From the NCBI GenBank assembly GCA_002718995.2, contig PBGL02000010.1, positions 16,475 through 80,474 on the forward strand: a DNA stretch of 64,000 bases. Direction: 5' to 3'. Source of the stretch: Methanobacteriota archaeon (lineage in GTDB: Archaea > Thermoplasmatota > Poseidoniia > Poseidoniales > Thalassarchaeaceae). Of this stretch, positions 1 through 37,835 are shown one piece after another (positions within the stretch are counted from its first letter, which is position 1; each line of letters starts with the position of its first letter). The position numbers and the translations under genes are program-made. The notes below the pieces were generated by a model. The model was not told where the DNA came from. It did no database searches and saw nothing but the letters and a program-made list of their open reading frames with translations.

Positions 1-156
1 GCTGGAGGGGATCTAGACAAAGTTGAGGAGGAGGACCAAGAAATTGTTGAGGCAACATTCAGAGGGGTATCTTCCGGCTCCTATGACAGGGGGAGGTACT
101 CACCAAAAAGGGAGGCTGGCGTACATCATTTCCATTCAATTATGTTTAACGATTGA
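1..156 (+). CDS. C-terminal end of an unidentified protein (partial)
   Basis: The first frame is open from base 1 to a TGA at 154-156 and encodes 51 residues, first acidic (a KVEEEDQE stretch), then basic and His-containing (SPKREAGVHHFH). The charge pattern looks like the tail of a real cytoplasmic protein rather than random translation. The stop lies 35 bases before the next gene on the same strand. I do not recognise the family, and the body of the gene is outside the window. Confidence 0.4.
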   Translation, partial: AGGDLDKVEEEDQEIVEATFRGVSSGSYDRGRYSPKREAGVHHFHSIMFND

Positions 157-191
157 ACATAGTTTATATCCAAACCTCCATCATACGTGTC

Positions 192-1487
192 ATGGCCAAA
201 GCAAACAATGTACCCACAATCGTGCTAATCGTCCTATCCGTCCTACTTTCAGGGTGCGCTGGCACTTCTAGCGAAGAAATTCAGGGGTGCATGGACGAGG
301 TTGCTCAGAACTACGATGAGGCGGCGACCCTTGACGACGATTCCTGTTCATACCTTGATACCGACGGGGATGGCGTCTTCGATCATCTTGAGGTTCCGGG
401 GTGCGTGGACGAGGGGGCAACAAATTATGATTCAAGCGCCACGGACGACGATGGTTCGTGCGCCTATCCCCCCGCATCACAGTACTCCACGGCATGGTCG
501 GAAGTAGGGATGGACATGCCATGCCAATGCTCTGATGGTTCTAACTACTCGGTTTGGCACCGGGATGCGTCGCAGACTCATGTCGTACTCTACTTCCAAG
601 GAGGAGGGGCGTGCTGGAATGATTTCACTTGCGTGGTCCCCGGCGGGACGTACAAGACAAACACTGGAGAATGGGATGACCCAACTCCGAGCACCCAAGA
701 GAACTCTAACGCGGGCGGAATCTTCAACTTCGCTAACCACGATAATCCATTGGTGGATTACTCATTCATATTTGTCCCATACTGCAGCGGGGACATCCAT
801 GTTGGTAACAACAACGTGACCTATGAGCATGGAGAGGTCCAGCACCGCGGACATCTGAATGCTATGTCGGGTTTCGAATTGATGAAAAGCATGTACCCCA
901 ATGCTGAGGAAATCTTCGTAACTGGATCGAGTGCCGGATCCATTCCTGCGACACTGTATGCCATGAAATCAGCAATGGATTATCCTGATGCTAGTGTCTC
1001 GGCATTCAATGATGCTACGGGCGGACTAGTTTCATTGGAGACTATAGATTTGGATACACTATGGTCGATTAATGAGACCATGTCTGACTTCTCCCTAGAT
1101 GGGGTTGTCAGCTTCAATAATTTATCTAGTGCAGATTTGGTAATTGTCCCAGCAATGCAAAATCTAGGAATTAAATTCGCCAGGTATGACAATGCCTACG
1201 ACAACACAATGAGGTACTTCAACGGACTTCTAGACAACCCTCCCTTCGACTACAATGAACAAATTAGAATTTCTGAGAATGAAATAGAAGAGGCTGGGGT
1301 GGATATCTCTGGTTTTATCGCACCTGGTGATGGGCATACCATCCTGGGGAATAGCGGCTTCTACGAACTGGAGGTGGAAGGTCACTCTTTCCTTGAGTGG
1401 TTCACTTCTTTCGTGGAAGGGGGACAGCCGGAAGACGTGCACTGTACTGATGACTGCAACCTTAATCCCGATGGATCTACAGTATGA
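192..1487 (+). CDS. Secreted lipoprotein, pectinacetylesterase/Notum-like hydrolase
   Basis: Predicted exported lipoprotein of 431 residues. The ATG at 192 gives a signal peptide ending in a lipobox (LLSGC, Cys22). Two copies of a Cys/Asp/Asn repeat of the form GCxDExAxNYDxxATxDDxSCxY follow (bases 285-353 and 399-467). The rest resembles the pectinacetylesterase (PAE/Notum) alpha/beta-hydrolase family: a YFQGGGACW segment, a nucleophile elbow GSSAG with Ser247, and a GDGH near the end as likely source of the catalytic His. The family removes acyl groups from polysaccharides or other substrates; the true substrate cannot be read from sequence. It precedes another secreted hydrolase by 43 bases on the same strand. 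Confidence 0.72.
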   Translation: MAKANNVPTIVLIVLSVLLSGCAGTSSEEIQGCMDEVAQNYDEAATLDDDSCSYLDTDGDGVFDHLEVPGCVDEGATNYDSSATDDDGSCAYPPASQYSTAWSEVGMDMPCQCSDGSNYSVWHRDASQTHVVLYFQGGGACWNDFTCVVPGGTYKTNTGEWDDPTPSTQENSNAGGIFNFANHDNPLVDYSFIFVPYCSGDIHVGNNNVTYEHGEVQHRGHLNAMSGFELMKSMYPNAEEIFVTGSSAGSIPATLYAMKSAMDYPDASVSAFNDATGGLVSLETIDLDTLWSINETMSDFSLDGVVSFNNLSSADLVIVPAMQNLGIKFARYDNAYDNTMRYFNGLLDNPPFDYNEQIRISENEIEEAGVDISGFIAPGDGHTILGNSGFYELEVEGHSFLEWFTSFVEGGQPEDVHCTDDCNLNPDGSTV

Positions 1488-6138: not shown

Positions 6139-6921
6139 ATGGTAGCCTCTCGGGAGACCATGGGCGGCGACTCAGGGGACCTTCTCCCACGTGCAGAATT
6201 GCGTGGACTGGTTAGTCATCTGCGGAAAAGAGCCTTGATCCTGTCAGGGGCCCTATTAATCGGTTTTCTAGCAGGTTTTCCCGCAGCTGGAGAGGCGATA
6301 GAGCTGCTTCTTGGCTCTAGTTCTTACAGGCCAGACGGAGTTGAGATTGTGATTCTTCACCCTATGGAAGCAATACTCCTTAAACTCAGAATTGGGATTA
6401 ATTTCGGAATATTGCTCTCTGCACTAGTTCTGATGTGCGACTTGACTTGGAACGGCAGGAGGATTGTTGCAGAATCTAGGAGGTCAGGGGATTACGGCAA
6501 AGGGAACTTTGGCGGTACCTTGGTAGTTGTTTTTCTGGCGTTCCTCCTGGGATTGATGGGCGCGGCGTACTCCCACGGGGTTCTTGTGCCGCTCCTTCTT
6601 GACTACCTGTCCAATGATGCTGCATCTGCTGGACTAGCCACAACATGGCAACTGCAGTCATGGGTTGGCTTCATCACTGGCCTGTACTTTGCATCGATCC
6701 TAGGATTCCAAGTACCTCTGATCGCTTCCATACTCCTGAGGAGCGAGCTGATAGAGAGAAGTTCAATCTCCGATAACAGAGGAAATCTCTGGTTCGCTGG
6801 ACTAATCTTGGGGGCTTTGATATCCCCTCCTGACCCAGTTTCGATGTTCCTAGTGGCTGGACCTATGCTGCTTCTTCTAGAAGTGGCACTGGTGGTCGAT
6901 AGGATAACTAGGAATCGATAG
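6139..6921 (+). CDS. tatC: Twin-arginine translocase subunit TatC
   Basis: 260-residue polytopic membrane protein, the TatC subunit that recognises twin-arginine signal peptides and exports folded proteins. Support: an N-terminal HLRKR segment matching the family HLxELRxR, several hydrophobic spans, a GFQVPLI segment, and the family-typical end SPPDPVSMFLVAGPM. A second ATG at 6160 could also be used. The last 14 bases overlap convergently with the end of the permease gene on the other strand. No TatA gene is in the window. Confidence 0.82.
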   Translation: MVASRETMGGDSGDLLPRAELRGLVSHLRKRALILSGALLIGFLAGFPAAGEAIELLLGSSSYRPDGVEIVILHPMEAILLKLRIGINFGILLSALVLMCDLTWNGRRIVAESRRSGDYGKGNFGGTLVVVFLAFLLGLMGAAYSHGVLVPLLLDYLSNDAASAGLATTWQLQSWVGFITGLYFASILGFQVPLIASILLRSELIERSSISDNRGNLWFAGLILGALISPPDPVSMFLVAGPMLLLLEVALVVDRITRNR

Positions 6922-8890
6922 CGATTCCTCGGTTTCTGGCATCCTCGGCCCTAGCTGCAGCCCTGCCGTCCTCTACGTCAACTAACCTCATCATGTAAGC
7001 ACCAATGAGAATTAGCAGGGAGATGCAGAAAACGCCGACCCTGCTGCCGTACATCACGGTGAGAGTGGCATACAAGAGAGGGCCGATGAAAGCGGCTACC
7101 TTTCCGAAGAAGCCGAAGAAGCCGAAGAACTCGGCACTCCTAGTCTCGGGCACCATCTGCCCGAATATACTCCTAGCCAGACCCTGGGAGCCGCCAAGGA
7201 GAGTCCCCATTCCACAACCAAGGAGCAAGAACTGGAGGCCTACAGTCAGGCCAAGAGGCTCCCATACGATGTCCCTGACGGTTTCTGGAATTACGTCTAT
7301 CGGGCCATCTCCGAGATTGGTCGGATGGTCTATGCCGACCGAGCTGGATTCGTCCAGTGGGCCACCGGAGACACTGGCACTGAATCTTGTATCTCCTATC
7401 GAGACCAGGAAGTCCTGAAGATGGCTCTGATTGTTTACCTTGACCATATGAGGGAAGTCTTCTGAGCTTCCCCACTTCCAATCGTAAATGCCACTCCTCT
7501 CGCCGATTTCAACAGGCAGAATTCCAGAGTATGTCTCTGCCCATTCCTGCTCGTTAAACTCTTCATCGGAGAAATCTGCCTTCTGGGCTATGCTGTGATC
7601 GAAATTCCAATTCATGTATGCCACATAAGAGCCGGAAGTGGCGAGTCTTTCTTGTAGCCAGGTCTGAGGGAGGGGGGACGGGCTATCCGTGTAGTCCAAA
7701 GGATCGGTCCCCATCTCAATCTCGTATGCATTATCGAACCAGTCTCCATCCACATCATCATCATACGAGTCTGCAATTCCATCACCATCGGAGTCCCACT
7801 CGAAAAGAACGTCATGTTGGTCATGTGAGTCCAGTGCTAGAGGGGCGAAAGCGCAGGCGGCGAAACAAAGCACGACCCAACCTGCAAGGGACACTGAAAG
7901 TGCCTTCTTAGTCCCAATTCCATCAATTGTAATCAGTCGGAAAACTCTACCCCCATTGGAAAGTGTAGTGAAAAATAGAGCACTGGGCCACGCTACGAAC
8001 TGTATCGCGAGTATGGTCACCATTAGCTCAGTAGTTGTTACACCCAGGACAGCGGTGCCGAACACGCCGCCCAATGCAGTTACGGTGTTTATCCCGTCTA
8101 TGAAGAAGAAATACGCGAGCATGTAGATGAAGAGGGTTCGGAACTTGCTGACTTCCTTCAGAGTCTGAATAACCTGGCGATAAGCCGACATGAGGTCGAC
8201 TGATTCCTCTTCTCCCTCCATGGGGGGCTCGGGGACGTACTTGAAAGTAAGAAGGGCGAAGCCATACCACCAGACTCCTGCGGAAGCTAGACACAGCCTG
8301 ATGACGAAGTCACCTCCAATCCCGAGAACCAGTATGAAGTGAATCAGGAGTAGTATCCCTCCTCCCAGATAACCGTAAGCGAATGCGCGGTTCGAGATGT
8401 CATCCATCTCGTCATCTGTCCCCATGTGAGGTAGCATTGCGTTGTAGAAGACGCCGGCCCCGTTCAGCCCTATGTTGGCTAGGAGGAAGAAAACCATCAG
8501 CCAGACCCATTCCGAGCCGGAATACAGGAAGTCGAATCCTATCAGGAATGTAGATCCCGCGCCGATATATGTCAAATACTTCAGCCACGTCATCTTGATT
8601 GGCTTTCTGTCCGCTATGACGCCGAAGGCGGGAGCGAGGATGGCTACCATCAATGTGGCTGCAGCCACTGCATAGGCCCAAACAGCGTCACCAGTCATGT
8701 CGATGTTTGCGATAGTGGTAGTGAGGCCATTTGCTTCCAAGAAAAGGTAAGCATACCATGCAGGCAGTATAGCTACGGTCGTACTTGTCTCGAATGCTGA
8801 CTTGCCCCAGTCATAGAATGCGTACCCCCTTACTGCCTTTGGATCCGAAGCCCGGTCTAGTTCTACTGCATCTGACATGGTAATACCCAT
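6908..8890 (-). CDS. UMF1/Atg22-like MFS permease with Asp-rich surface insert
   Basis: 660-residue membrane transporter. The N-terminal YAFYDWGKSAFET and following helices match the UMF1 (Atg22-like) branch of the major facilitator superfamily; the substrate is unknown. Between two hydrophobic spans, residues about 352-545 form a soluble insertion (bases 7256-7837) beginning with Asp-rich repeats of the thrombospondin type 3/calcium-binding kind (DSDGDGIADSYDDDVDGD), then a Trp-rich region. Such inserts are not usual in the family. The start is ATG 8890; an ATG at 8878 is equally possible. It diverges from the GDPD gene. Confidence 0.75.
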   Translation of the reverse strand: MGITMSDAVELDRASDPKAVRGYAFYDWGKSAFETSTTVAILPAWYAYLFLEANGLTTTIANIDMTGDAVWAYAVAAATLMVAILAPAFGVIADRKPIKMTWLKYLTYIGAGSTFLIGFDFLYSGSEWVWLMVFFLLANIGLNGAGVFYNAMLPHMGTDDEMDDISNRAFAYGYLGGGILLLIHFILVLGIGGDFVIRLCLASAGVWWYGFALLTFKYVPEPPMEGEEESVDLMSAYRQVIQTLKEVSKFRTLFIYMLAYFFFIDGINTVTALGGVFGTAVLGVTTTELMVTILAIQFVAWPSALFFTTLSNGGRVFRLITIDGIGTKKALSVSLAGWVVLCFAACAFAPLALDSHDQHDVLFEWDSDGDGIADSYDDDVDGDWFDNAYEIEMGTDPLDYTDSPSPLPQTWLQERLATSGSYVAYMNWNFDHSIAQKADFSDEEFNEQEWAETYSGILPVEIGERSGIYDWKWGSSEDFPHMVKVNNQSHLQDFLVSIGDTRFSASVSGGPLDESSSVGIDHPTNLGDGPIDVIPETVRDIVWEPLGLTVGLQFLLLGCGMGTLLGGSQGLARSIFGQMVPETRSAEFFGFFGFFGKVAAFIGPLLYATLTVMYGSRVGVFCISLLILIGAYMMRLVDVEDGRAAARAEDARNRGIAIDS

Positions 8891-17537: not shown

Positions 17538-18734
17538 TTAATGAAGTACTCCCCAAGCATGTTCGGCATTTCCATGAATCCACTGGTAATCATCCAATGT
17601 CCTCACTTCGGAGCCCTCTTCGAAGCGTATTGACTCTACCTCTAGAGGATACTCGTTGTAGGTGAGATGGCTAACCCACGATGCCCTTGTCGGTTGATCG
17701 AAAACCCATTTGGCTCTACTGGCTGCCCTAACTTGGATATTCACGCTCACCTGATCATTCCAGACTTTGACATTGAATCTGGGAAGGACGTTCCCATCGT
17801 CATCCATTAGTGCGTCTTTCTCCGTTGGCATGGAGAGTTTGACCTCGCAATTGTCGAAACTATGAGTCTTGCCGCCCTTCCTGTCATGGAAAACTCCGGT
17901 GCCTATGTTTGGAGTTCTGAATACGTCGCGCAGCCTCCAAGGCTTTTCGTCGGTAACAGTCCACATGGGGGAGACATGTGGCATGAACCAATCCAAGTAG
18001 GATCCGTCATCGAAGTGTAACATCCCCCAGAACCACGGGAAAGACGGAGCCTGGACGGTAACCTTCTGAAAGTAACCGGTCCCCTCCATTTCCTCTCCAT
18101 CAACTATCAGCTTGCACTTAGTAGCCTGCAGCCTGAGGATGTCATAACCCATCCCTAGAAAGTATACATTGTTTCTGTAAGTGAGTTCGCTAGGCGGCCC
18201 CCACCAGGGAGTTAACTCTGCCTCGAATGTCTTGGGTGCCCCCTTTGAGCGTGCTTCCGGATCACTGGTTAGGTTGATCCAGAAAGACTCGTTTCCGGGT
18301 GACATACCCAATGACATGTCCTCTGAGGTTAGTGGCACCACTGCTCCTGCGCCTTTGCCTTCGCCCTGTCCGGGCCACAGTGGATGAGTGTCCGGAATAC
18401 TCGCCATCCTGCACTCCCTCATCACAAGAGGCTCGTGCATATCTTCGCCATCATACCACCATGCGCACACCATCCCGGGAAGCACGTGCCCGCCGTCCTC
18501 GTCAATGTGCATCCTATTCTTGGGCTTCCACCAATGGCCGCTGACCCTGATAGCTGGTGTTTCCTTAGTTGACCACAATACCATCAACTGCTTGGACCTA
18601 GAGGGGTTTTTAGGATCCGGGATTAATATTAGAGCCCACCACCACCACCATGAAAGCCTTCTAATCGGTGGCATTACATCTAGCCTCCATAGGGAAGAGA
18701 AGTCCCCTTTGAAATTAGGCTCTAGTGACTCCAT
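17538..18734 (-). CDS. Trp-rich protein, possibly lipocalin-like (CrtC/AttH type)
   Basis: 398 residues, beta-rich, rich in Trp, Pro, Gly and Asp, with no clear signal peptide. Residues about 29-35 hold five consecutive Trp in SWWWWWALIL; later WWYDGEDMHEP and FPWFWGMLHFDDGSYLDWF repeat a pattern like the strands of CrtC/AttH-type lipocalin-like proteins. This family guess is weak. The ATG at 18734 has GGTGA four bases upstream and overlaps no gene; the ABC-2 permease stop is eight bases before it, so the genes are co-transcribed. Confidence 0.45.
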   Translation of the reverse strand: MESLEPNFKGDFSSLWRLDVMPPIRRLSWWWWWALILIPDPKNPSRSKQLMVLWSTKETPAIRVSGHWWKPKNRMHIDEDGGHVLPGMVCAWWYDGEDMHEPLVMRECRMASIPDTHPLWPGQGEGKGAGAVVPLTSEDMSLGMSPGNESFWINLTSDPEARSKGAPKTFEAELTPWWGPPSELTYRNNVYFLGMGYDILRLQATKCKLIVDGEEMEGTGYFQKVTVQAPSFPWFWGMLHFDDGSYLDWFMPHVSPMWTVTDEKPWRLRDVFRTPNIGTGVFHDRKGGKTHSFDNCEVKLSMPTEKDALMDDDGNVLPRFNVKVWNDQVSVNIQVRAASRAKWVFDQPTRASWVSHLTYNEYPLEVESIRFEEGSEVRTLDDYQWIHGNAEHAWGVLH

Positions 18735-18742
18735 ATCATCAC

Positions 18743-20398
18743 CTACATTATCTCCTTCCTTCGGAATATCGAGCTTCCCATGGATATCAGAATGAGTGAG
18801 ATGAAAGACAGGAATGTAACACAAGTCGCTATTGAAAGATATGGGTTTCCAGTTCCGAGAGTGTGGACCGGAGGACTCCAAATCCACTGTAGGCCTGTAT
18901 CTAGGCCGAATGCATCTGACATCTGTGAGTACTGCAGCGTATCTGGCCAAGCAGCTAGCACGGTTGCGTCAATGATTTGGAGCCCCCAGTGGGATATTGA
19001 CAGGAACGTTACAGGGGAGTTCGGCGAGATGATGCTGGTGAATCCCATTGCAAATTCCCAGACGCCTATGATTATGCAGAGATAAACGCCATACTTTGGC
19101 ATCACGAGACCTATGGTGTTGAACAGGGAGCCATAGGCCGCGAGAACTAGTATTGTTGCTGTCGCTATGCCTACCCAGACGGGGAAGTCGCCAAATCTGA
19201 TCAAATCATCGCCCGGGCCAATGAGCGAGGTGATCAGTGCCATCAATAATGACAGTGTAATGACGTATGTCGAAACCACAGCCAGATAGCCCAGAACCCT
19301 GTAAGAAATGAATTCGCCACGGTGTATTGGCTTAGACAGGAGGTAGTGAAGAGTCCCCCTTTCAGTCTCATCCCTTACTAGGCCTAGAGCCAGGAAGAGA
19401 GGGAGGAAAAGCCCTAGGAGTAAAACGAATGCCACCTTGCCAGATGCAATTACGAACGCACGATGTGATGACTCGCCGGCGTAGTCCTCGTCCACGGGGT
19501 CCTCGTCGACTAAATTATCAGCATTGATTGATACAACCTCACCGGTGTTAGGGTCGATGACCCATACCACATCACAGGGCAATCCGTTTCTATTTGAGTC
19601 GGAGTTGTGCGGATCTTCCCACCACATTTCACCGTCTATTTGGGCGGGCCAGCCCACTCTGAGGCAATCCCCATCATCATCGACACCCTGACTGCCCCCC
19701 GAGCCGTCCCAATCGATTCCATCCTCATCGATGTACATTTCAGGAGGGTCTGGTTCAACGAAGAATTCCTGAGTGAAGAAACCCCAAGACAGGTATTGCC
19801 CTTCGGGGACGTATAGATTCCCGGAAGCCTTGAGTTTGCCACTCACGACATAGGTTCCATCCTCCTGTAGGCATGCCGAAGCATAATCAGGCCACCAATC
19901 ATCAAATGGATCCCCATCTCGGCATTGCTCTACATTGCCATCATCCCAATCTATGATATTGCTCCACCTTCCTCCTGAGTAATCGTAGTCGATCCATGTG
20001 GCTTCCAGAATTGCAGATCCCTCCCAGGTCTTATTTCCACTAATTGACCTATCTGGGGCATTCCAGTCTATTTGACCTTCAAAGATGAAATTTCCTGAGC
20101 CGGGGAATGATTCGCCGTCCCAATCGCTAGTCCCATACTTTCTTTCTTGTCCCATCGGATACCCGTCGTTGTCGTCATCGACACTGTCACCATCATTGTC
20201 TATTGACTCAAATCCATCCCTAATTGCATCGATGTAGAATACCAGGAGGAGAGTCATTAGAAGTACACCTAGAGCCATTACGACCCAAGTCGAAATTTTG
20301 TTCCTAAGCTGCCTTACAGTTAATTCGATTACTGCTCCTGCTTTCCTGTCGAGGCTGGTCCAGACGCTCTCGCTTAGCCCTCTTCCTTGGGAGTCCAT
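18743..20398 (-). CDS. ABC-2 type permease with large Asp-rich surface insert
   Basis: 551-residue membrane subunit of an ABC transporter. One N-terminal span (about 38-58), then a soluble insert (residues 60-312, bases 19463-20221), then five or six spans with an ABC-2 family segment (LGLVRDETERGTLHYLLSKPI). The insert starts with Asp-rich repeats (DNDGDSVDDDNDGYP) and holds further acidic loops with Cys and Trp, suggesting calcium binding outside the cell. It follows its ATPase gene directly (TAA then ATG). Substrate unknown. Confidence 0.8.
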   Translation of the reverse strand: MDSQGRGLSESVWTSLDRKAGAVIELTVRQLRNKISTWVVMALGVLLMTLLLVFYIDAIRDGFESIDNDGDSVDDDNDGYPMGQERKYGTSDWDGESFPGSGNFIFEGQIDWNAPDRSISGNKTWEGSAILEATWIDYDYSGGRWSNIIDWDDGNVEQCRDGDPFDDWWPDYASACLQEDGTYVVSGKLKASGNLYVPEGQYLSWGFFTQEFFVEPDPPEMYIDEDGIDWDGSGGSQGVDDDGDCLRVGWPAQIDGEMWWEDPHNSDSNRNGLPCDVVWVIDPNTGEVVSINADNLVDEDPVDEDYAGESSHRAFVIASGKVAFVLLLGLFLPLFLALGLVRDETERGTLHYLLSKPIHRGEFISYRVLGYLAVVSTYVITLSLLMALITSLIGPGDDLIRFGDFPVWVGIATATILVLAAYGSLFNTIGLVMPKYGVYLCIIIGVWEFAMGFTSIISPNSPVTFLSISHWGLQIIDATVLAAWPDTLQYSQMSDAFGLDTGLQWIWSPPVHTLGTGNPYLSIATCVTFLSFISLILISMGSSIFRRKEIM

Positions 20399-21334
20399 TT
20401 AGCCACCCCCTACCAAGTACCCAAGAAGGGACTCTAGATTATCATCAGGATTCTCAACTGACCTGACCTTGACCCCCGAGTCAACAATTACCTGAGGGAG
20501 TATTGAATGGGCGGCAGAGAGGTTACTAGTCTGGATTTCCAAGTATCCTTTGTCTGGGAACCTCACCCCATATACGGGCTCTCGGGAAATGAATGCCTTG
20601 GCCAGTTCCCTAGGCGATTCAGTCTCGATCAAAATCCTATGTGGGTGCTTGTCAAGAAGCCCCCTAATGGCATGCAAGTTCCCTAGGGCCAAGAGTCTGC
20701 CATTGTGCAGAATTACGATCTGTTCCGTAATCCTCTCGATCTCCTCCAAGATATGGCTAGAGACAATCACGGTTTTTCCCCGATTTCCAAGCTCTCTGAT
20801 GACGCTCATTATGCTAGTCCTGGCCAGAGGATCGCATCCATGCAAAGGCTCATCGAGAATTATCAAATCTGGATCGTGGACTAGCGCATGTGCTATCTTC
20901 ACCCTCTGGCGCATGCCCTTGCTGTACTTACCAACCTCCTTGTGACGTACGTCTGAGAGGCCGACGAAATCAAGAACATGCTCGGCACGGTCGGTAGCCT
21001 CCTCGCGAGTCATCCCATGTAGTCTGGCCATGGTCGATACAAAGTCGAGCCCGGTCATCCATTCGTAGAGAGGTTCAGTCTCACTAACGTAGCCAACCCT
21101 CCTGAAAGGGGCGGTGCTCTCCCATGGGTCTATTCCGAAGAGCCTCACCGATCCTTGATTCGGCTTCAGCCTCCCTAGTAAGAGCTTGAACATGGTGGAC
21201 TTGCCTGCGCCGTTAGGCCCAAGAACTCCTGTTACGCCTCCGTCAATGGCCAGAGATACATCGTTAACCCCGATGACTTCTCCGTACCATTTGGAAACAG
21301 ATTCCAGTACAACTGCTGGACTTTCAGAGCTCAT
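20399..21334 (-). CDS. ABC transporter ATPase (second of pair)
   Basis: 311 residues. Walker A GPNGAGKS, signature YSKGMRQRVKIA, Walker B LIILDEP and switch His in SSHILEE are all present, in the CcmA-like class that pairs with ABC-2 permeases. A C-terminal regulatory extension of about 90 residues follows. Its start overlaps the end of the preceding permease by four bases (ATGA), and the insert-bearing permease follows directly. Confidence 0.9.
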   Translation of the reverse strand: MSSESPAVVLESVSKWYGEVIGVNDVSLAIDGGVTGVLGPNGAGKSTMFKLLLGRLKPNQGSVRLFGIDPWESTAPFRRVGYVSETEPLYEWMTGLDFVSTMARLHGMTREEATDRAEHVLDFVGLSDVRHKEVGKYSKGMRQRVKIAHALVHDPDLIILDEPLHGCDPLARTSIMSVIRELGNRGKTVIVSSHILEEIERITEQIVILHNGRLLALGNLHAIRGLLDKHPHRILIETESPRELAKAFISREPVYGVRFPDKGYLEIQTSNLSAAHSILPQVIVDSGVKVRSVENPDDNLESLLGYLVGGG

Positions 21335-22344
21335 TCCCTAGTCACCTCCAAGGAACTGACCCTACTAGCAAGTAATGCTATCGAGATGCCATTCATCAAC
21401 AATAGTGAGACTACAGAAAATGCAAGAGAGTGGTCGTAATTAGATTCTATTCCCAGCAGCCACTGCCCGATATGGGCCAATACGTCATAGGGGCTGAAGA
21501 TGTAAAGAATTGACGAGTCGAACTGGGACTCTATTAGGAAAGCCACCATTTTTGTCCCATAGATTGTTGCCAGGAACGCAACACCTGCGAAGAATCTGCT
21601 TTGACTGATGCTAGACAGTGCTAGACCTATCGAAGTATAGGTTAATACTAGCAGTAAACCAGCTAGGAGCCCCCCTAGGAACATAGGGAATGTGTCGATC
21701 AGGAATGCCCAACCCTCTCCTCTGAAAACTATTGCACCTGTATAGTACAGGATGTAAGAGAATACGATGACGAATCCCAGAACTACGGCGGAGCTGAGGA
21801 ATTTCATAGCAGTGTAGTCAATCCGATTGACTGGTCTGGAAAAATAAATTGCACTTGTACCATTACTCCTGTCATCGGAAATCATGCCACCCACCACCAA
21901 TGCAGTCAGAAGAGGCCACATGCACATATTGCGGGGAAAGAATCCGAGGACCTGTCCCCACAGGTTGTATCTATTGATGCCCCACAACCTTGACAAGACC
22001 TCTCCAAAATCCCCATTCCCCCCCATTGACGCCAAAAATAACATCGCGACAGGAGATAGAGAGAAAAGGAAAATTCCCAGAATGGTGAGCCTGACCATTA
22101 TTGGGTAGTGCCTATGACCCTTGGAAGTGAATAGTCCGTACACGTGGTGCCTGTATATCGAGTAGTTGCGGACCCATCTCGGCCCGAGTGTCCCCCTCCA
22201 TGGCCGATAAGACTGTTCGAAAATTGCACCCTTGATTTCTGCCTTCTGGGCCACAGTTGCTTGAGCGTCTTGATCCCCGTCGCCGGAGCCGAAGGCGGAC
22301 TCCATCCTAGTGATCCCTCCAGTAATATCCAACTCATCGCTCAT
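21331..22344 (-). CDS. ABC-2 type permease
   Basis: 337 residues with about six hydrophobic spans after a cytoplasmic N-terminal region of about 90 residues (basic and Tyr-rich near residues 45-85). The SDDRSNGTSAIYFSRPV segment matches ABC-2 permeases. It sits between two ATPase genes, overlapping both by four bases, so the four genes encode two coupled half-systems or one heteromeric exporter. Substrate unknown. Confidence 0.83.
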   Translation of the reverse strand: MSDELDITGGITRMESAFGSGDGDQDAQATVAQKAEIKGAIFEQSYRPWRGTLGPRWVRNYSIYRHHVYGLFTSKGHRHYPIMVRLTILGIFLFSLSPVAMLFLASMGGNGDFGEVLSRLWGINRYNLWGQVLGFFPRNMCMWPLLTALVVGGMISDDRSNGTSAIYFSRPVNRIDYTAMKFLSSAVVLGFVIVFSYILYYTGAIVFRGEGWAFLIDTFPMFLGGLLAGLLLVLTYTSIGLALSSISQSRFFAGVAFLATIYGTKMVAFLIESQFDSSILYIFSPYDVLAHIGQWLLGIESNYDHSLAFSVVSLLLMNGISIALLASRVSSLEVTRE

Positions 22345-23333
22345 ACCGGAAGCCCCCTATGTTCGTCTGTCATTAGGTCATCGGTCCCCTTGACCTCCTC
22401 GCCGAGCCTATCCATGATGAGGAGGAAGATGTCCTCCAAGTCAGGTTCGTAATCCGACATTTTCCTTACTTGAACGCCGCATAATGATGCCGCCTCCATT
22501 ATCTTCGAATAGGTCTCTTCTGATGACTTGGAGACCCTCATATTCCTTCCTAGCCTCCTTACAGGCATGCCCATTGAGACAAGCTGAGATTCCATTTCAG
22601 AGGCACCCCCCCAAACTGAAATCTCAATTTCAGATTCAACTTGGCTGACTAATTCATCGATTTTTCCTTCGACCACAATCTTTCCCTTGTGTATCATTAC
22701 GATTCTATCACAGACTTCTTGGACGTCATCCATGACATGGCTACTCATTATGACCGACCTTCCACCATCTGTAACAGTCCTCCTCAGAGTCTGGAGCATG
22801 AAGTTCCTAGCTCTTTGATCTAGGCCATTTGTTGGTTCGTCGCAGATTAGTATCTCAGGATCGTGAATTAGGGCGCATGCAAGCTTGGTGGCTTGCTTCA
22901 TTCCCGTGCTGAACGTCTCTATCTTCCTATATCTCTGGTCCTTCAGACCAACATATTCCAAAACCTCGTGTGCCCTCTGAGTAGCTGCCGAGCTATTCAT
23001 TCCCAGAAGTTCTCCTGAATACCTAACTTGATCGATGGCATTCAGACCAGGATCTAATGAGTCGTACTCAGGCATGTAGCCAATTTTGGATCGTATAAGG
23101 TGGCCTTCAGTCCTCATATCGTGACCTAGTACATGTCCGTCTCCAGAAGTTGCTTTGATTAGGCCGAGGATGCATTTGAACAGTGTTGACTTGCCGGCCC
23201 CATTTGGCCCCAATAATCCAGTGGCCCCATGAGGTATGGCAAGATTGACGTCTTCTAGTGCCAAGTGAGGCCCATACAACTTTCTTAGGGCTCTGGCCTC
23301 TATGAGGGGCAAAGGTGTCGATTCAGGAGCCAT
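22341..23333 (-). CDS. ABC transporter ATPase (first of pair)
   Basis: 330 residues. Walker A GPNGAGKS, a signature in unusual form (FSTGMKQATKLA), Walker B ILICDEPTNGLD and switch His in SSHVMDD. The C-terminal 100 residues resemble the regulatory tail of CcmA-like ATPases. The ATG at 23333 is chosen because GGTGG lies seven bases upstream; a GTG at 23342 is possible. It is the first gene of the minus-strand operon, with a strong hairpin directly before the ribosome binding site. Confidence 0.9.
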   Translation of the reverse strand: MAPESTPLPLIEARALRKLYGPHLALEDVNLAIPHGATGLLGPNGAGKSTLFKCILGLIKATSGDGHVLGHDMRTEGHLIRSKIGYMPEYDSLDPGLNAIDQVRYSGELLGMNSSAATQRAHEVLEYVGLKDQRYRKIETFSTGMKQATKLACALIHDPEILICDEPTNGLDQRARNFMLQTLRRTVTDGGRSVIMSSHVMDDVQEVCDRIVMIHKGKIVVEGKIDELVSQVESEIEISVWGGASEMESQLVSMGMPVRRLGRNMRVSKSSEETYSKIMEAASLCGVQVRKMSDYEPDLEDIFLLIMDRLGEEVKGTDDLMTDEHRGLPV

Positions 23334-23342
23334 TATTGCCAC

Positions 23343-33663: not shown

Positions 33664-35123
33664 AATATTGGCGTCTGAGAAATGTACTCCGCCGGTAGCA
33701 TTAGCTCCAGCCCGAATAGCGGATCAGGATCTGAAGAGTCGTGGTATGCAATGAATGCCCCTCCATCTGGCAAAATCCCCATGCTGGCAAAGTCGAATCT
33801 AATATCGTTCCCAGCGCCCGAAGTAGAGTCGAGGTCGCCCTGTCCCAAATATGTCCTAGAGTCGGGGCTCATGCTGTCTGAGAATCCCCTCACATGCCAT
33901 GCTAGATCGACATCTGGTCCAGAAGAGCTCTGGTATCGAACATTGAGGATGAACAAATCATGAGCCCCATTTGAGTGGAACTCCCATTCCTCCAACTCAG
34001 TGGCTTCGGATGAGAGGTCGTAGGATTGGTTGCTCCAGCTTTCACCGCCGTCCCATGAGATCAGGTGAGTGAGTAGGGTTCCACTCGCAAACACGCAATG
34101 TAGTGCAGTTGATGAGTCGAACGCGCAATATTGGGAAGGGAGAGAAGAGCCGTTCAGGGTCACGCCGGTCCACCAATTGAGTGATGTATCCAGGAATGCG
34201 TCCCTCCCGTCGATGAAGTAATCTGGGAAATATAGGCCGCCCGAAGGGACGGGGAAAGCCCTCATCTCCTTGTGCGGCTTAGTGAAGTCCCACTCCGGCC
34301 CTAATTCAAGGGGGTCCAGATCGACCTCCATAACATCAAGATTAGCGTCTCTATCAGGGAATCCGAAGTAGTCGTAATTCAGTCCGTCGGTTGAAATCTG
34401 GCCCCCAATGTTCTGGACTTGGTGCCAGAAGTTCGAAATCACCAGACTGGCCCATGGACCGTTGCCATACAGGCCGCCGTTAATGGGACCGATGACTTCT
34501 ACTTGCCATGACCTATCGTAGAAGGGCTCTGGCGTCCTATTGAAGCACCAGCTCCATTCTTCGTCATCGGAATCGTAGAGGAATGCATAGAACTGGTCTG
34601 CCCCACTTGAGCTTGGATAGGGGAACCATCCCATCGAAATAAGATCTCCATTTGTCGCCTGGACTATGCTACCCTCTCCGAGACCCTCTTGCCCCGGGAC
34701 AGTGGGCTTGGGCTCCATGCACCCCAGCTGTGAGAATATGGAAGGCCTGTACTCCTCCCAAGTATGTCCTCTATCCTCAGACCAAGTAGGGTATTCCCCG
34801 CCGAAGTTTAGGATCCAACCTTCCTTGGTGGCGGCAAGGTAGTGCTCGCAGCAGTTCCCGCCCTCCACATTTCCAAATACTGCCCAAGAGGAATTTCCCC
34901 ACGTGTCGTTTGAGAATGGTTCGCCTGCTATGAATGGCCTAATGCAGGGAGTGCTGGCACAGGAGTCGACGTGGCTTGAAGGGGAGTCGACGTATTCCAT
35001 CCCTGCATCCCAATCAGGGCCGCTGTCCTCAGAGCCGATTACCTCTCCGAAGCATCCCGAAAGTGAGGTGCTAGCGAGCATTAATGACACGAGAGCGATA
35101 TGCGCTGCCGAAGTGCCCCTCAT
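33660..35123 (-). CDS. Secreted lipoprotein with sialidase/BNR-like repeats
   Basis: 487 residues. The ATG at 35123 gives a signal peptide with lipobox (SLSGC). The mature part is rich in Trp, Gly, Asp and Ser, with Asp-box-like turns (WSEDRGHTWEEY, SWDGGESWSNQ, ISTDGLNYDYFG), suggesting a BNR/sialidase-type beta-propeller. Cys pairs (CASTPC, NCC) may form disulfides. No catalytic assignment is possible. It overlaps ileS by four bases and diverges from the lamin-tail/amidohydrolase gene 99 bases away. Confidence 0.6.
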   Translation of the reverse strand: MRGTSAAHIALVSLMLASTSLSGCFGEVIGSEDSGPDWDAGMEYVDSPSSHVDSCASTPCIRPFIAGEPFSNDTWGNSSWAVFGNVEGGNCCEHYLAATKEGWILNFGGEYPTWSEDRGHTWEEYRPSIFSQLGCMEPKPTVPGQEGLGEGSIVQATNGDLISMGWFPYPSSSGADQFYAFLYDSDDEEWSWCFNRTPEPFYDRSWQVEVIGPINGGLYGNGPWASLVISNFWHQVQNIGGQISTDGLNYDYFGFPDRDANLDVMEVDLDPLELGPEWDFTKPHKEMRAFPVPSGGLYFPDYFIDGRDAFLDTSLNWWTGVTLNGSSLPSQYCAFDSSTALHCVFASGTLLTHLISWDGGESWSNQSYDLSSEATELEEWEFHSNGAHDLFILNVRYQSSSGPDVDLAWHVRGFSDSMSPDSRTYLGQGDLDSTSGAGNDIRFDFASMGILPDGGAFIAYHDSSDPDPLFGLELMLPAEYISQTPIF

Positions 35124-35222
35124 GAAGACGGGTGGGCAGAGTGCTATTTCGCACTTCGCACGTGGTGGGCCATTCAACTTGGTGCGGTGAGGTTCAAAAC
35201 AAGGGGCGATGCTTGGTGGGTC

Positions 35223-37835
35223 ATGCGTACCTCCGCAGTTGCCGCAGCCTTACTGATAGCGATAACTAGTTTGGGACCAATTACGCTATCTTCTGGACAG
35301 GCTGCACCGGGTGGATCTCCATTCCCAGATCACGTTTTCATCAACGAGATTTACGCATCTCCCAATAGTGAGTCTTACGGAGGCATAGACTGGAATGGCG
35401 ATGGGGAGATTGGTCGTTTCTCTAATCAATTCGTAGAGCTTCACAATCCCACTGATGGAGCAGTAGACATTGGAGGATGGTGGCTTGACGACATAGCCGA
35501 AGGCGGCTCCCCCATGTGCAGTATCGCTTGGGGGACCGTTCTCGAACCTGGTGCCTACCTCGTATTCTACAGAGCGCAGACCAATATCGAATTGGATTAC
35601 TATGACGGTGATACTGTATCGATCTTGGATGGTTCGGGATCGGTAGTTGACTCTGTCAGCTACGGAGCGGAAGATTCTGATTACGGAATCCCCTATGGAT
35701 ATGGGTCTGATGGAAACTGGGCAAAGCTATCTGATGGCAGTCCGACTCCAGGCGGCTCTAACAGTGAGGAATGGGTAGGAGTTAACCACCTGATGGGCAA
35801 TTGCTACCCGCCTCAAGATCATGTTCACCGAGGAGAGTATGTTCTCGAGGGTCGAGTCGTTACTATGGTTTCACAGAATGACGTTATTGACGATGGGCGT
35901 GTCTTGGTGAGAGATGGCATCATTGAGGCTGTTTGGAGTGCATCGGATGAAACTCCTTCTCAGGCAGAGGGAGTAGTTCATGTGCCAACCAGTGGCACGA
36001 TATACCCAGGATTTGTTGACCCTCACAACCATGCAAAGTATAACTTGATTCCACTGTGGGATCATGGGACTGATGGTTGGGATAATAGGTACCAGTGGCA
36101 GTCTTACTCCGGATACAGTGATGCCAAGGATATTGGCTGCTCACTCTATGATTCATCTGCTATGAGATTTGCAGAGTTGAGGGCGGTCGCCGGAGGAAAT
36201 ACGGCCTTGCAGGGAAGTTCGACTACGGGTACCGATACCTTCGAGACTATGCTCGCTAGGAATATCGAGCTGTACAACTTTGGAGGGGATGGCATTTGGA
36301 CCAAGGTAACTGAATTGGAGTCGGACTACGAAGGCAACCACATCAAGAGCGGGAATTCGTCAGGAGGTCTAAATGCATGGTTTATCCATCTCGCAGAGGG
36401 TGTTGATGAGTCCAGCAGAGCAGAGTTTGACGTACTAGTGGAGAATGACTTACTTGTTGGCGAGATAGTGGTAATTCATGGGACTGGGCTTACTCAGCCG
36501 GAGTTCTCTGCTTTGGGCGACGTAGGAGGGAGCCTCGCTTGGTCGCCGACATCAAATCTGCTGCTGTATGGGGATACCACGGACATTGCTACGGCGAAAG
36601 CTGAGGGAGTCAACATCATGATTGGCCCGGACTGGTCACCTTCGGGCTCCAAAAGCTCCCTGCACGAGCTCAAAACTGCCGACTGGTGGGATGAAAATGT
36701 ACTTGGAGATATTTTCACGGATTTCGAAATGTTGCAGACGATCACAACTAACGTAGTAGATGCCATAGGGTGGTCGGGCAACACAGGGAGGATCATGGAG
36801 GGGCTGGCTGCGGACCTAGTGGTCCTAGATACCTTCGAAGCAGATCCATATCGGAATGCTATAGAGGCCATAGACCCGGATATCAGACTGGTCGTAGTAG
36901 GCGGACTCCCTGTTTTCGGAGACGTCGACATCATGCAAGCTATGGATGACGAAGTTGAGGTCATTGAGGCCGAGGGTTTCAGAAAGGCGACTGACATTAC
37001 CTATGATGGAGTTCCTGAGGCCCAGCAAACGTTCGCAGAAATGTTCGCATACCTACAGGAGTGCAATGAAGGGAAGAGCGTGCCAATTGAGTACCTATTC
37101 ACACTAGGCGATGAACGTTACTTCGACGTTCTGAATCGCTCTCTGACATTCCAGAAAGACAGGACTATTGATCTATGGTCCGACTACTACGATATCGAGC
37201 TCGACGAAAACGGTCATCGTGTTGGCGGCACTGTTGGCGGGGCTGACCCAATTGAGACGAATCTCACTGGGAATAGTGGCAATGGGGGGAATAATGCGCC
37301 AGCTACACCGCCTCCCGAACTTCCGACGACATTCTCAACCTTCGGCCCCAGAGGTGGCTACATCCCTCATCCAACAACGATATCCGATGGAATTCACATC
37401 GAGGATTGTTTGTCCGATTTCGGGAATGGGATGCCAGAAGTTTCTGAGGGGGAGATGATCCTCTGTGGATCCATACTAATCGTGATGGAAGACACCGACG
37501 AATGTATCTCATCATGGTTCATGACCCAGTTCTGTAATCTTGAGGTATCCGACTCTTTCACGGTGCCAGGAAGGGTTTGCACCGATGCCATGATTACTTC
37601 TTCTGACGAGGAATGGATAGAATGCAGGCATGACGTTGTTTTCATTGAGGCATCTTCGGATGAGGCTCCCAATGATCCGAATTATACCGACTCTTCGGAT
37701 GAATCTTGGTTAGATAGCCCCCTCTACTGGGTTGCGATAATTGCAGCTATAGCTGTGATAATTGGTTCTTTGGCCATCATCAATAGCAATCTTAGAGAAC
37801 GCATAACTGCTACCTTGGGACTCGAGGAAGAATAG
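35223..37835 (+). CDS. Secreted lamin-tail/amidohydrolase fusion with C-terminal anchor
   Basis: 870 residues. Domains in order: signal peptide (1-28), lamin-tail-like (LTD) domain (about 34-180: VFINEIYASP, FVELHNPTDGAVDIGGWWLDD), amidohydrolase domain (about 205-625) with the metal motif DPHNHA (His268, His270) and later VIHGTG, then a Cys-containing linker, and one membrane span near the C terminus (about 833-853). Amidohydrolases hydrolyse or deaminate cyclic amides and are normally cytosolic; here export is implied. The pairing with LTD is unusual. The ATG at 35223 leaves a coherent signal peptide. Confidence 0.75.
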   Translation: MRTSAVAAALLIAITSLGPITLSSGQAAPGGSPFPDHVFINEIYASPNSESYGGIDWNGDGEIGRFSNQFVELHNPTDGAVDIGGWWLDDIAEGGSPMCSIAWGTVLEPGAYLVFYRAQTNIELDYYDGDTVSILDGSGSVVDSVSYGAEDSDYGIPYGYGSDGNWAKLSDGSPTPGGSNSEEWVGVNHLMGNCYPPQDHVHRGEYVLEGRVVTMVSQNDVIDDGRVLVRDGIIEAVWSASDETPSQAEGVVHVPTSGTIYPGFVDPHNHAKYNLIPLWDHGTDGWDNRYQWQSYSGYSDAKDIGCSLYDSSAMRFAELRAVAGGNTALQGSSTTGTDTFETMLARNIELYNFGGDGIWTKVTELESDYEGNHIKSGNSSGGLNAWFIHLAEGVDESSRAEFDVLVENDLLVGEIVVIHGTGLTQPEFSALGDVGGSLAWSPTSNLLLYGDTTDIATAKAEGVNIMIGPDWSPSGSKSSLHELKTADWWDENVLGDIFTDFEMLQTITTNVVDAIGWSGNTGRIMEGLAADLVVLDTFEADPYRNAIEAIDPDIRLVVVGGLPVFGDVDIMQAMDDEVEVIEAEGFRKATDITYDGVPEAQQTFAEMFAYLQECNEGKSVPIEYLFTLGDERYFDVLNRSLTFQKDRTIDLWSDYYDIELDENGHRVGGTVGGADPIETNLTGNSGNGGNNAPATPPPELPTTFSTFGPRGGYIPHPTTISDGIHIEDCLSDFGNGMPEVSEGEMILCGSILIVMEDTDECISSWFMTQFCNLEVSDSFTVPGRVCTDAMITSSDEEWIECRHDVVFIEASSDEAPNDPNYTDSSDESWLDSPLYWVAIIAAIAVIIGSLAIINSNLRERITATLGLEEE

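Follow-up and report, generated by a model that had tools for sequence, protein, structure and literature searches.

An ABC-2 permease of Poseidoniales with an acidic outside domain and, in one branch of Thalassarchaeaceae, an inserted segment that appears remotely related to a giant AglB

The window, that is, the whole stretch of 64,000 nucleotides analysed, contains on its minus strand a cassette of two ABC ATPase genes and two ABC-2 permease genes, followed by a gene encoding a W-rich protein. The second permease, PERM2, shows a domain between its first and second membrane spans, which is divided here in three parts (A-C). The cassette and the parts of PERM2 are as follows:

22341-23342, minus strand: ATP1, ABC ATPase, 333 aa (PF00005, 9.9e-31)
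21331-22344, minus strand: PERM1, second ABC-2 permease of the locus, 337 aa (PF12679, 3e-8)
20399-21334, minus strand: ATP2, ABC ATPase, 311 aa (PF00005, 3.9e-28)
18743-20398, minus strand: PERM2, ABC-2 permease with outside domain, 551 aa (stop codon 18743-18745; PF12679, 2.1e-11)
20219-20296, minus strand: span 1 of PERM2, residues 35-60, a helix in the full-length model
20102-20218, minus strand: part A, residues 61-99, with a TSP3-type motif, order-wide in the alignment
19754-20101, minus strand: part B, residues 100-215, predicted beta domain with Cys159 and Cys176, candidate relative of a segment of AglB
19493-19753, minus strand: part C, residues 216-302, order-wide, with invariant Asp and Cys
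18746-19492, minus strand: spans 2 to 6 of PERM2, residues 303-551, helices in the full-length model
17538-18734, minus strand: W-rich protein, 398 aa, next gene after PERM2, gene order kept in 100 of 100 loci

PERM2 matches the Pfam family ABC2_membrane_2 (PF12679) with 44 bits, above the curated cut-off of 27.2, and this family also matches all 33 PERM2 homologues scanned (E up to 5; best 4e-16). In the genome of the window, which is 85.7% complete, PF12679 finds two loci, PERM1 and PERM2, both inside the cassette. The full-length AlphaFold2 model of PERM2, built from a 61-sequence alignment (mean pLDDT 82.9, pTM 0.74), shows helices at residues 9-33, 35-60 (span 1), 303-347, 360-393, 404-432, 437-457, 468-483 and 519-548, with short ones between them, and the residues between span 1 and the helix at 303-347 are mostly strand or irregular. 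In a VIA-align search this model finds NosY first (7znq_Y, Z 22.6, rmsd 2.9 over 250 residues, target length 269), ABCG at Z about 18-21 and ABCA4 at Z 18.2; in Foldseek the best E is 8.3e-3 and the NosY rows are at probability 0.99-1.00. The core of PERM2, as modelled, is thus predicted to be a NosY-like type V ABC-2 permease with the six-span fold. Since the NosY chain of the structure library has 269 residues and PERM2 has 551, NosY lacks a domain as large as that of PERM2 at the corresponding position; in NosDFY, according to the titles of the structure entries, NosD is a separate protein. As general background, NosDFY has a link with the assembly of the metal centre of nitrous oxide reductase.

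The permease is present in 186 of the 193 Poseidoniales genomes, so PERM2 is not a chance open frame. The seven misses, all incomplete genomes, are four in the family of the window, Thalassarchaeaceae, and three in its sister family, which is taken to be Poseidoniaceae because the available text of PMC6461757 gives the order two families. A profile of the short form of the permease matches 61 of 64 genomes of the order and 12 of 174 other genomes of the phylum, the latter with at most 50.5 bits: 11 of these 12 matches start at about span 2, and only the one in G258 covers span 1 and part A. The same profile matches none of the five genomes of a third family (f3), which belongs to the same class outside the order. 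Among the matches listed in open-licence papers nothing was found on this permease, which does not imply its absence from print.

The gene order ATP2, PERM2, W-rich protein is kept in 100 of 100 loci, with ATP2 directly upstream of PERM2, and ATP1 and PERM1 precede this group in 94 of them, where any of the other six may lie at the end of a contig or of the stretch analysed. These loci were chosen for holding PERM2: 80 are from related records, nine are from Thalassarchaeaceae without part B and 11 are from the sister family. Upstream of the cassette there is a gene encoding a TGT with a PUA domain, and downstream there are genes encoding a PH-domain protein, a protein with a weak TPR match and a tRNA pseudouridine synthase. 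The W-rich protein shows a WWWWW motif and a mean column identity of 63% over 30 rows, against 38-39% in the permease alignments, which contain different sets of rows. For the window copy no Pfam family exceeds the cut-off, and searches of the PDB sequences (E up to 10) and of NCBIfam (E up to 1) give no match; a resemblance to CrtC/AttH-like lipocalins, considered for it, is at most a possibility. Relatives of the W-rich protein are found in 62 of 64 genomes of the order, in 11 of 174 other genomes of the phylum and in none of the five genomes of f3. Seven neighbourhoods of distant relatives, some of them in stretches that end near a contig end, show no recognised relative of the four ABC genes, and one distant relative (L309) has a TGT-like frame about 4 kb away. 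The four ABC proteins, ATP1, PERM1, ATP2 and PERM2, most likely form one heteromeric transporter in which the two permeases would pair.

A reading of the window from its sequence alone had placed an acidic surface domain, with Asp-rich repeats, Trp and paired Cys, at residues 60-312 of the ABC-2 permease, and this description holds: these residues correspond exactly to positions 19463-20221 of the minus strand and the domain lies between spans 1 and 2. Residues 61-302 contain 16.5% Asp, 5.8% Trp and four Cys, against 7.2% Asp and 2.3% Trp across all window ORFs of more than 300 residues, a reference that includes PERM2 itself and spurious frames. The net charge of these 242 residues is -47. 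This charge, and the nearest fold being that of NosDFY with its metal-centre link, favour a reading in which the domain is an uptake or binding device that collects a divalent metal or a cationic substrate from seawater; we regard it as very unlikely, since, besides the Asp motifs, the residues of the domain that are invariant over the order hold one pair of Cys and no cluster of His.

Part A contains the motif DNDGDSxDxDxDGYPxGQExxxGT, and part C contains IDEDGxDWD, DDDGDC245, DxNxNGxxC275DV and, directly before span 2, VDEDP. Both parts are kept in the two families of the order; in four aligned rows of one Thalassarchaeaceae genus (g3) and in L059 most of part A is absent, with its first Asp motif and part C retained. 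In 61 aligned homologues, including forms without part B, the invariant residues are D67, D69, D71, E225, D226, D240, G243, D244, C245, N269 and C275. Two pairs of Cys may form disulfides: Cys159 and Cys176 in part B (the second invariant and the first in at least 90% of 34 rows), and the invariant Cys245 and Cys275 in part C. The bacterial TSP3 repeat family (TSP3_bac, PF18884) matches 12 of 33 homologues (scan at E up to 5, best 6.1e-6). These do not include the window copy, whose match in the search of its own genome is below the cut-off (E 0.039); part A shows only one repeat-like stretch. The part C motif DxNxNGxxCD resembles, as we take it, the Excalibur calcium domain (PF05901), and neither this family nor any other is found for part C of the window copy among the Pfam families listed at E up to 5. 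Calcium binding by the outside domain, read from these motifs, is probable. Modelled alone, the outside domain has a weak overall confidence (mean pLDDT 67.7), with part B as its best part; Foldseek of this model gives a best E of 0.34 and none below 0.001, and VIA-align gives a best Z of 3.4, with cupin-like and jelly-roll rows and no structure close enough to assign a role.

Among nine members of the genus, the median nonsynonymous difference (pN) is 0.095 in part A, 0.284 in part B, 0.167 in part C and 0.155 in spans 2-6. The medians of dN/dS are 0.043, 0.098, 0.063 and 0.029, respectively, and rest on 4 to 14 usable pairs out of 36, since synonymous sites are almost saturated. By its median pN, part A is conserved no less than the membrane part, and part B is the most variable part, yet still constrained. 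The main rival of the reading preferred below is that the outside domain is a mere spacer, an acidic, hydrated, calcium-stiffened stalk clearing a crowded surface layer, with part B as a near-neutral insertion at a tolerant site. Part B changing fastest, indels being common in it and near part C, and its absence from three genera of Thalassarchaeaceae agree with this. The Asp and Cys of parts A and C being invariant over the order, the constraint on part B (median dN/dS 0.098 in 12 usable pairs) and its presence wherever the permease was found in the searched genomes of its clade (39 of 39) speak against it, and we consider a spacer unlikely, though the least so of the rivals.

The sequence-only reading had also seen in this domain, in the loop of a UMF1 transporter and in a fusion of a protease with a permease a possible habit of the lineage to graft surface domains onto transporters. 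The two other transporters are as follows:

6908-8890, minus strand: UMF1/Atg22-like transporter with an outside loop
56239-60057, minus strand: subtilase (residues 182-505) fused to an MFS transporter (residues 717-1022), 1272 aa

Grafting fits part B alone; parts A and C are old and order-wide and are not a recent graft. The loop of UMF1 was tried as a relative of the PERM2 domain and dropped: the hhalign probability against the permease domain is 1.1% for TSP3-bearing loops and 0.1% for all loops, and only the TSP3-type motif is common to both. In an alignment of 27 UMF1 sequences, which comprise the window copy, the locus identical to it and 25 further homologues (two from f3), the loop spans 136-235 residues, and it is seen in f3 as well as in the two families of the order. 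A long TSP3 stretch is found in it only in five Thalassarchaeaceae genomes (G000, which is that of the window, G012, G018, G023 and G060); the crude pattern D-x-D/N-x-D/N-G also fired in three copies (L253, L267 and L269) without such a stretch. The fusion of a subtilase and an MFS transporter in one protein is real, and it shows no match to the PERM2 domain profiles, which compare sequence and not fold. The PKD protein at 44.4 kb, which had been suggested for comparison, does not match the domain profiles either, nor does any other window ORF of at least 150 residues at E up to 10. Nothing was found to be common to PERM2, the UMF1 transporter and the PKD protein beyond a TSP3-type motif, which two of them show. 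In the genome of the window TSP3_bac gives 44 matches, mostly in large open frames, with that of PERM2 as the weakest; these archaea often put TSP3-type motifs on large proteins, and in the available text of PMC6461757 thrombospondin genes are widespread in the order. Two further proteins of the window may be recorded here: a pectinacetylesterase-like protein (153-1484, plus strand) shows a DTDGDG motif at residue 69, and a frame of 911 aa (35100-37832, plus strand) shows a Lamin Tail Domain before an amidohydrolase match.

The distribution of part B is narrower than that of the permease. With the profile of part B, it is found in the permease of 39 of 49 Thalassarchaeaceae genomes searched, and all 39 are among the 40 genomes searched of eight genera, the only miss (G066) having given no permease. 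None of the nine genomes of the three other genera (g2, g3 and g5), of which G042 gave no permease, and none of the 47 genomes of the sister family, of which G053 and G091 gave no permease, shows it, which makes zero of 56 genomes outside the eight genera, three of these without any permease found. In the aligned rows of the sister family and of g2, g3 and g5, part A joins part C directly. In a tree of the membrane part, with the outside domain left out (43 rows), the presence of part B is one change on a branch with support 100/97; this tree gave long-branch warnings and does not keep the sister family together. Since the sister family lacks part B, the simplest reading of this distribution is one gain inside Thalassarchaeaceae.

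The profile of part B also matches long open frames of 1509-3324 aa in 22 of the 47 genomes of the sister family (best 2.7e-9), eight of them below 1e-3 and fourteen between 1e-3 and 9e-3. Nine of these frames were fetched: all match part B at corresponding positions, about 1630-1750, and all show STT3 over the Pfam cut-off, as does a frame in the genome of the window (L155); AglB_core-like is below the cut-off in some of these AglB frames. The other thirteen frames are assigned to AglB by frame length only. In the 49 Thalassarchaeaceae genomes searched the profile of part B found no AglB. The frame in the genome of the window is:

G000, contig C4, 26046-33440: AglB/STT3, frame L155, STT3 over the cut-off

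The giant AglB frames (L155, L135-L140 and L142-L144) are of about 3200 aa, where the usual size of AglB/STT3 is a third to a quarter of this, and show a very long outside C-terminal part with CarboxypepD_reg-like domains. Of 20 genomes searched for a relative of this AglB, 19 gave one, which in the two f3 genomes was recovered only in parts, and among the matches listed in open-licence papers a giant AglB of Poseidoniales was not found, from which its absence from print does not follow.

Compared by hhalign, part B and the AglB segment match over 63 columns with a probability of 97.1% (E 7e-11). In the opposite direction, a profile of the AglB segment searched in 40 genomes finds long AglB frames in 38 and the permease in all 16 genomes of the genus of the window (E 9.8e-7 to 7.2e-4). 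Of the other genera bearing part B six genomes were searched, and in none of them did it find the permease; at E up to 0.01 it finds in these 40 genomes no third protein besides AglB and the permease. The AglB segment aligns across both families with both Cys kept; it is like part B in its conserved Cys pair and its Y-x-x-x-G end, and several AglB copies of the sister family share with part B of the permease an R-x-x-x-x-N start. Unlike part B, it is part of a longer Gly-rich region. The profile match in both directions points to part B and the AglB segment being related, remotely. In a tree of 46 rows and 104 columns, with long-branch warnings, the permease copies and the AglB copies are separate clades (100/96), and the AglB copies of Thalassarchaeaceae are one clade (100/98); a recent origin of part B from the AglB of this family is thus not supported, and the tree gives neither the donor nor the direction of transfer.

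With AglB and this permease as the only proteins found by the AglB profile in the 40 genomes (E up to 0.01), the pump may be thought to serve surface glycosylation, moving a glycan-lipid or glycoprotein precursor, with part B giving it the binding partner of AglB. The conserved neighbours of the cassette (TGT, tRNA pseudouridine synthase, PH-domain protein and the protein with a weak TPR match) are not glycan genes, however, and the pump is far older than part B, and this reading is improbable.

Outside domains at this place are known from other transporters. The statement of the earlier reading that ABC-2 permeases normally have short loops at this place goes too far: in the available text of PMC8501128, large exocytoplasmic domains separate the first two membrane segments of ABCA4. 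PERM2 is like the ABCA transporters in showing, in the predicted model, its outside domain between spans 1 and 2, with the core matching at the Z given above. According to the same text, the domains of ABCA4 are made of intertwined helices and short sheets in one chain of 2273 residues. PERM2, unlike ABCA4, shows an acidic, partly beta domain on a separate subunit of 551 aa, and its halves and ATPases are not fused as in ABCA, ATP1, ATP2 and PERM1 being separate genes; no ABCA exocytoplasmic domain is among the matches listed for the outside-domain model (mean pLDDT 67.7). Type V pumps with an outside domain between spans 1 and 2 are a known kind; the composition of this domain and the link to AglB are new.

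The reading preferred here, to which we give about an even chance, is that PERM2 works, paired with PERM1 and joined by ATP1 and ATP2, in a heteromeric NosY-like type V ABC exporter whose outer mouth is covered by a Ca2+-stabilised cap, with part B as a surface docking module. Parts A and C would form the acidic, probably Ca2+-binding and disulfide-tied frame of this cap, between which one branch of Thalassarchaeaceae would have inserted the beta domain B. The cap would most likely lie over the outer mouth of the transporter, and in ABCA4 the exocytoplasmic domain helps to hold the substrate at this mouth. From the fold class, the transporter would most likely export; against this stands ABCA4, a member of that class which the title of PMC8501128 gives as an importer. 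The only relatives detected for part B being in the outer portion of AglB, this part would most likely bring the transporter into docking contact with the surface layer of the cell or with its glycans.

In the available literature the Poseidoniales are described as uncultured and as more abundant in the surface ocean than any other archaea. Since the permease is found in nearly all genomes of the order and the cassette is conserved, the pump is likely part of the core surface biology of this order. The domain common to PERM2 and AglB gives a concrete, testable hint on the place where the pump works. A bolder reading, with a slim chance of being right, is that a type V exporter and the N-glycosylation enzyme of Poseidoniales share a private surface domain, recruited once, in Thalassarchaeaceae, for work on or at the same surface structure; if true, the pump would take part in building or crossing the glycosylated cell surface of this family.
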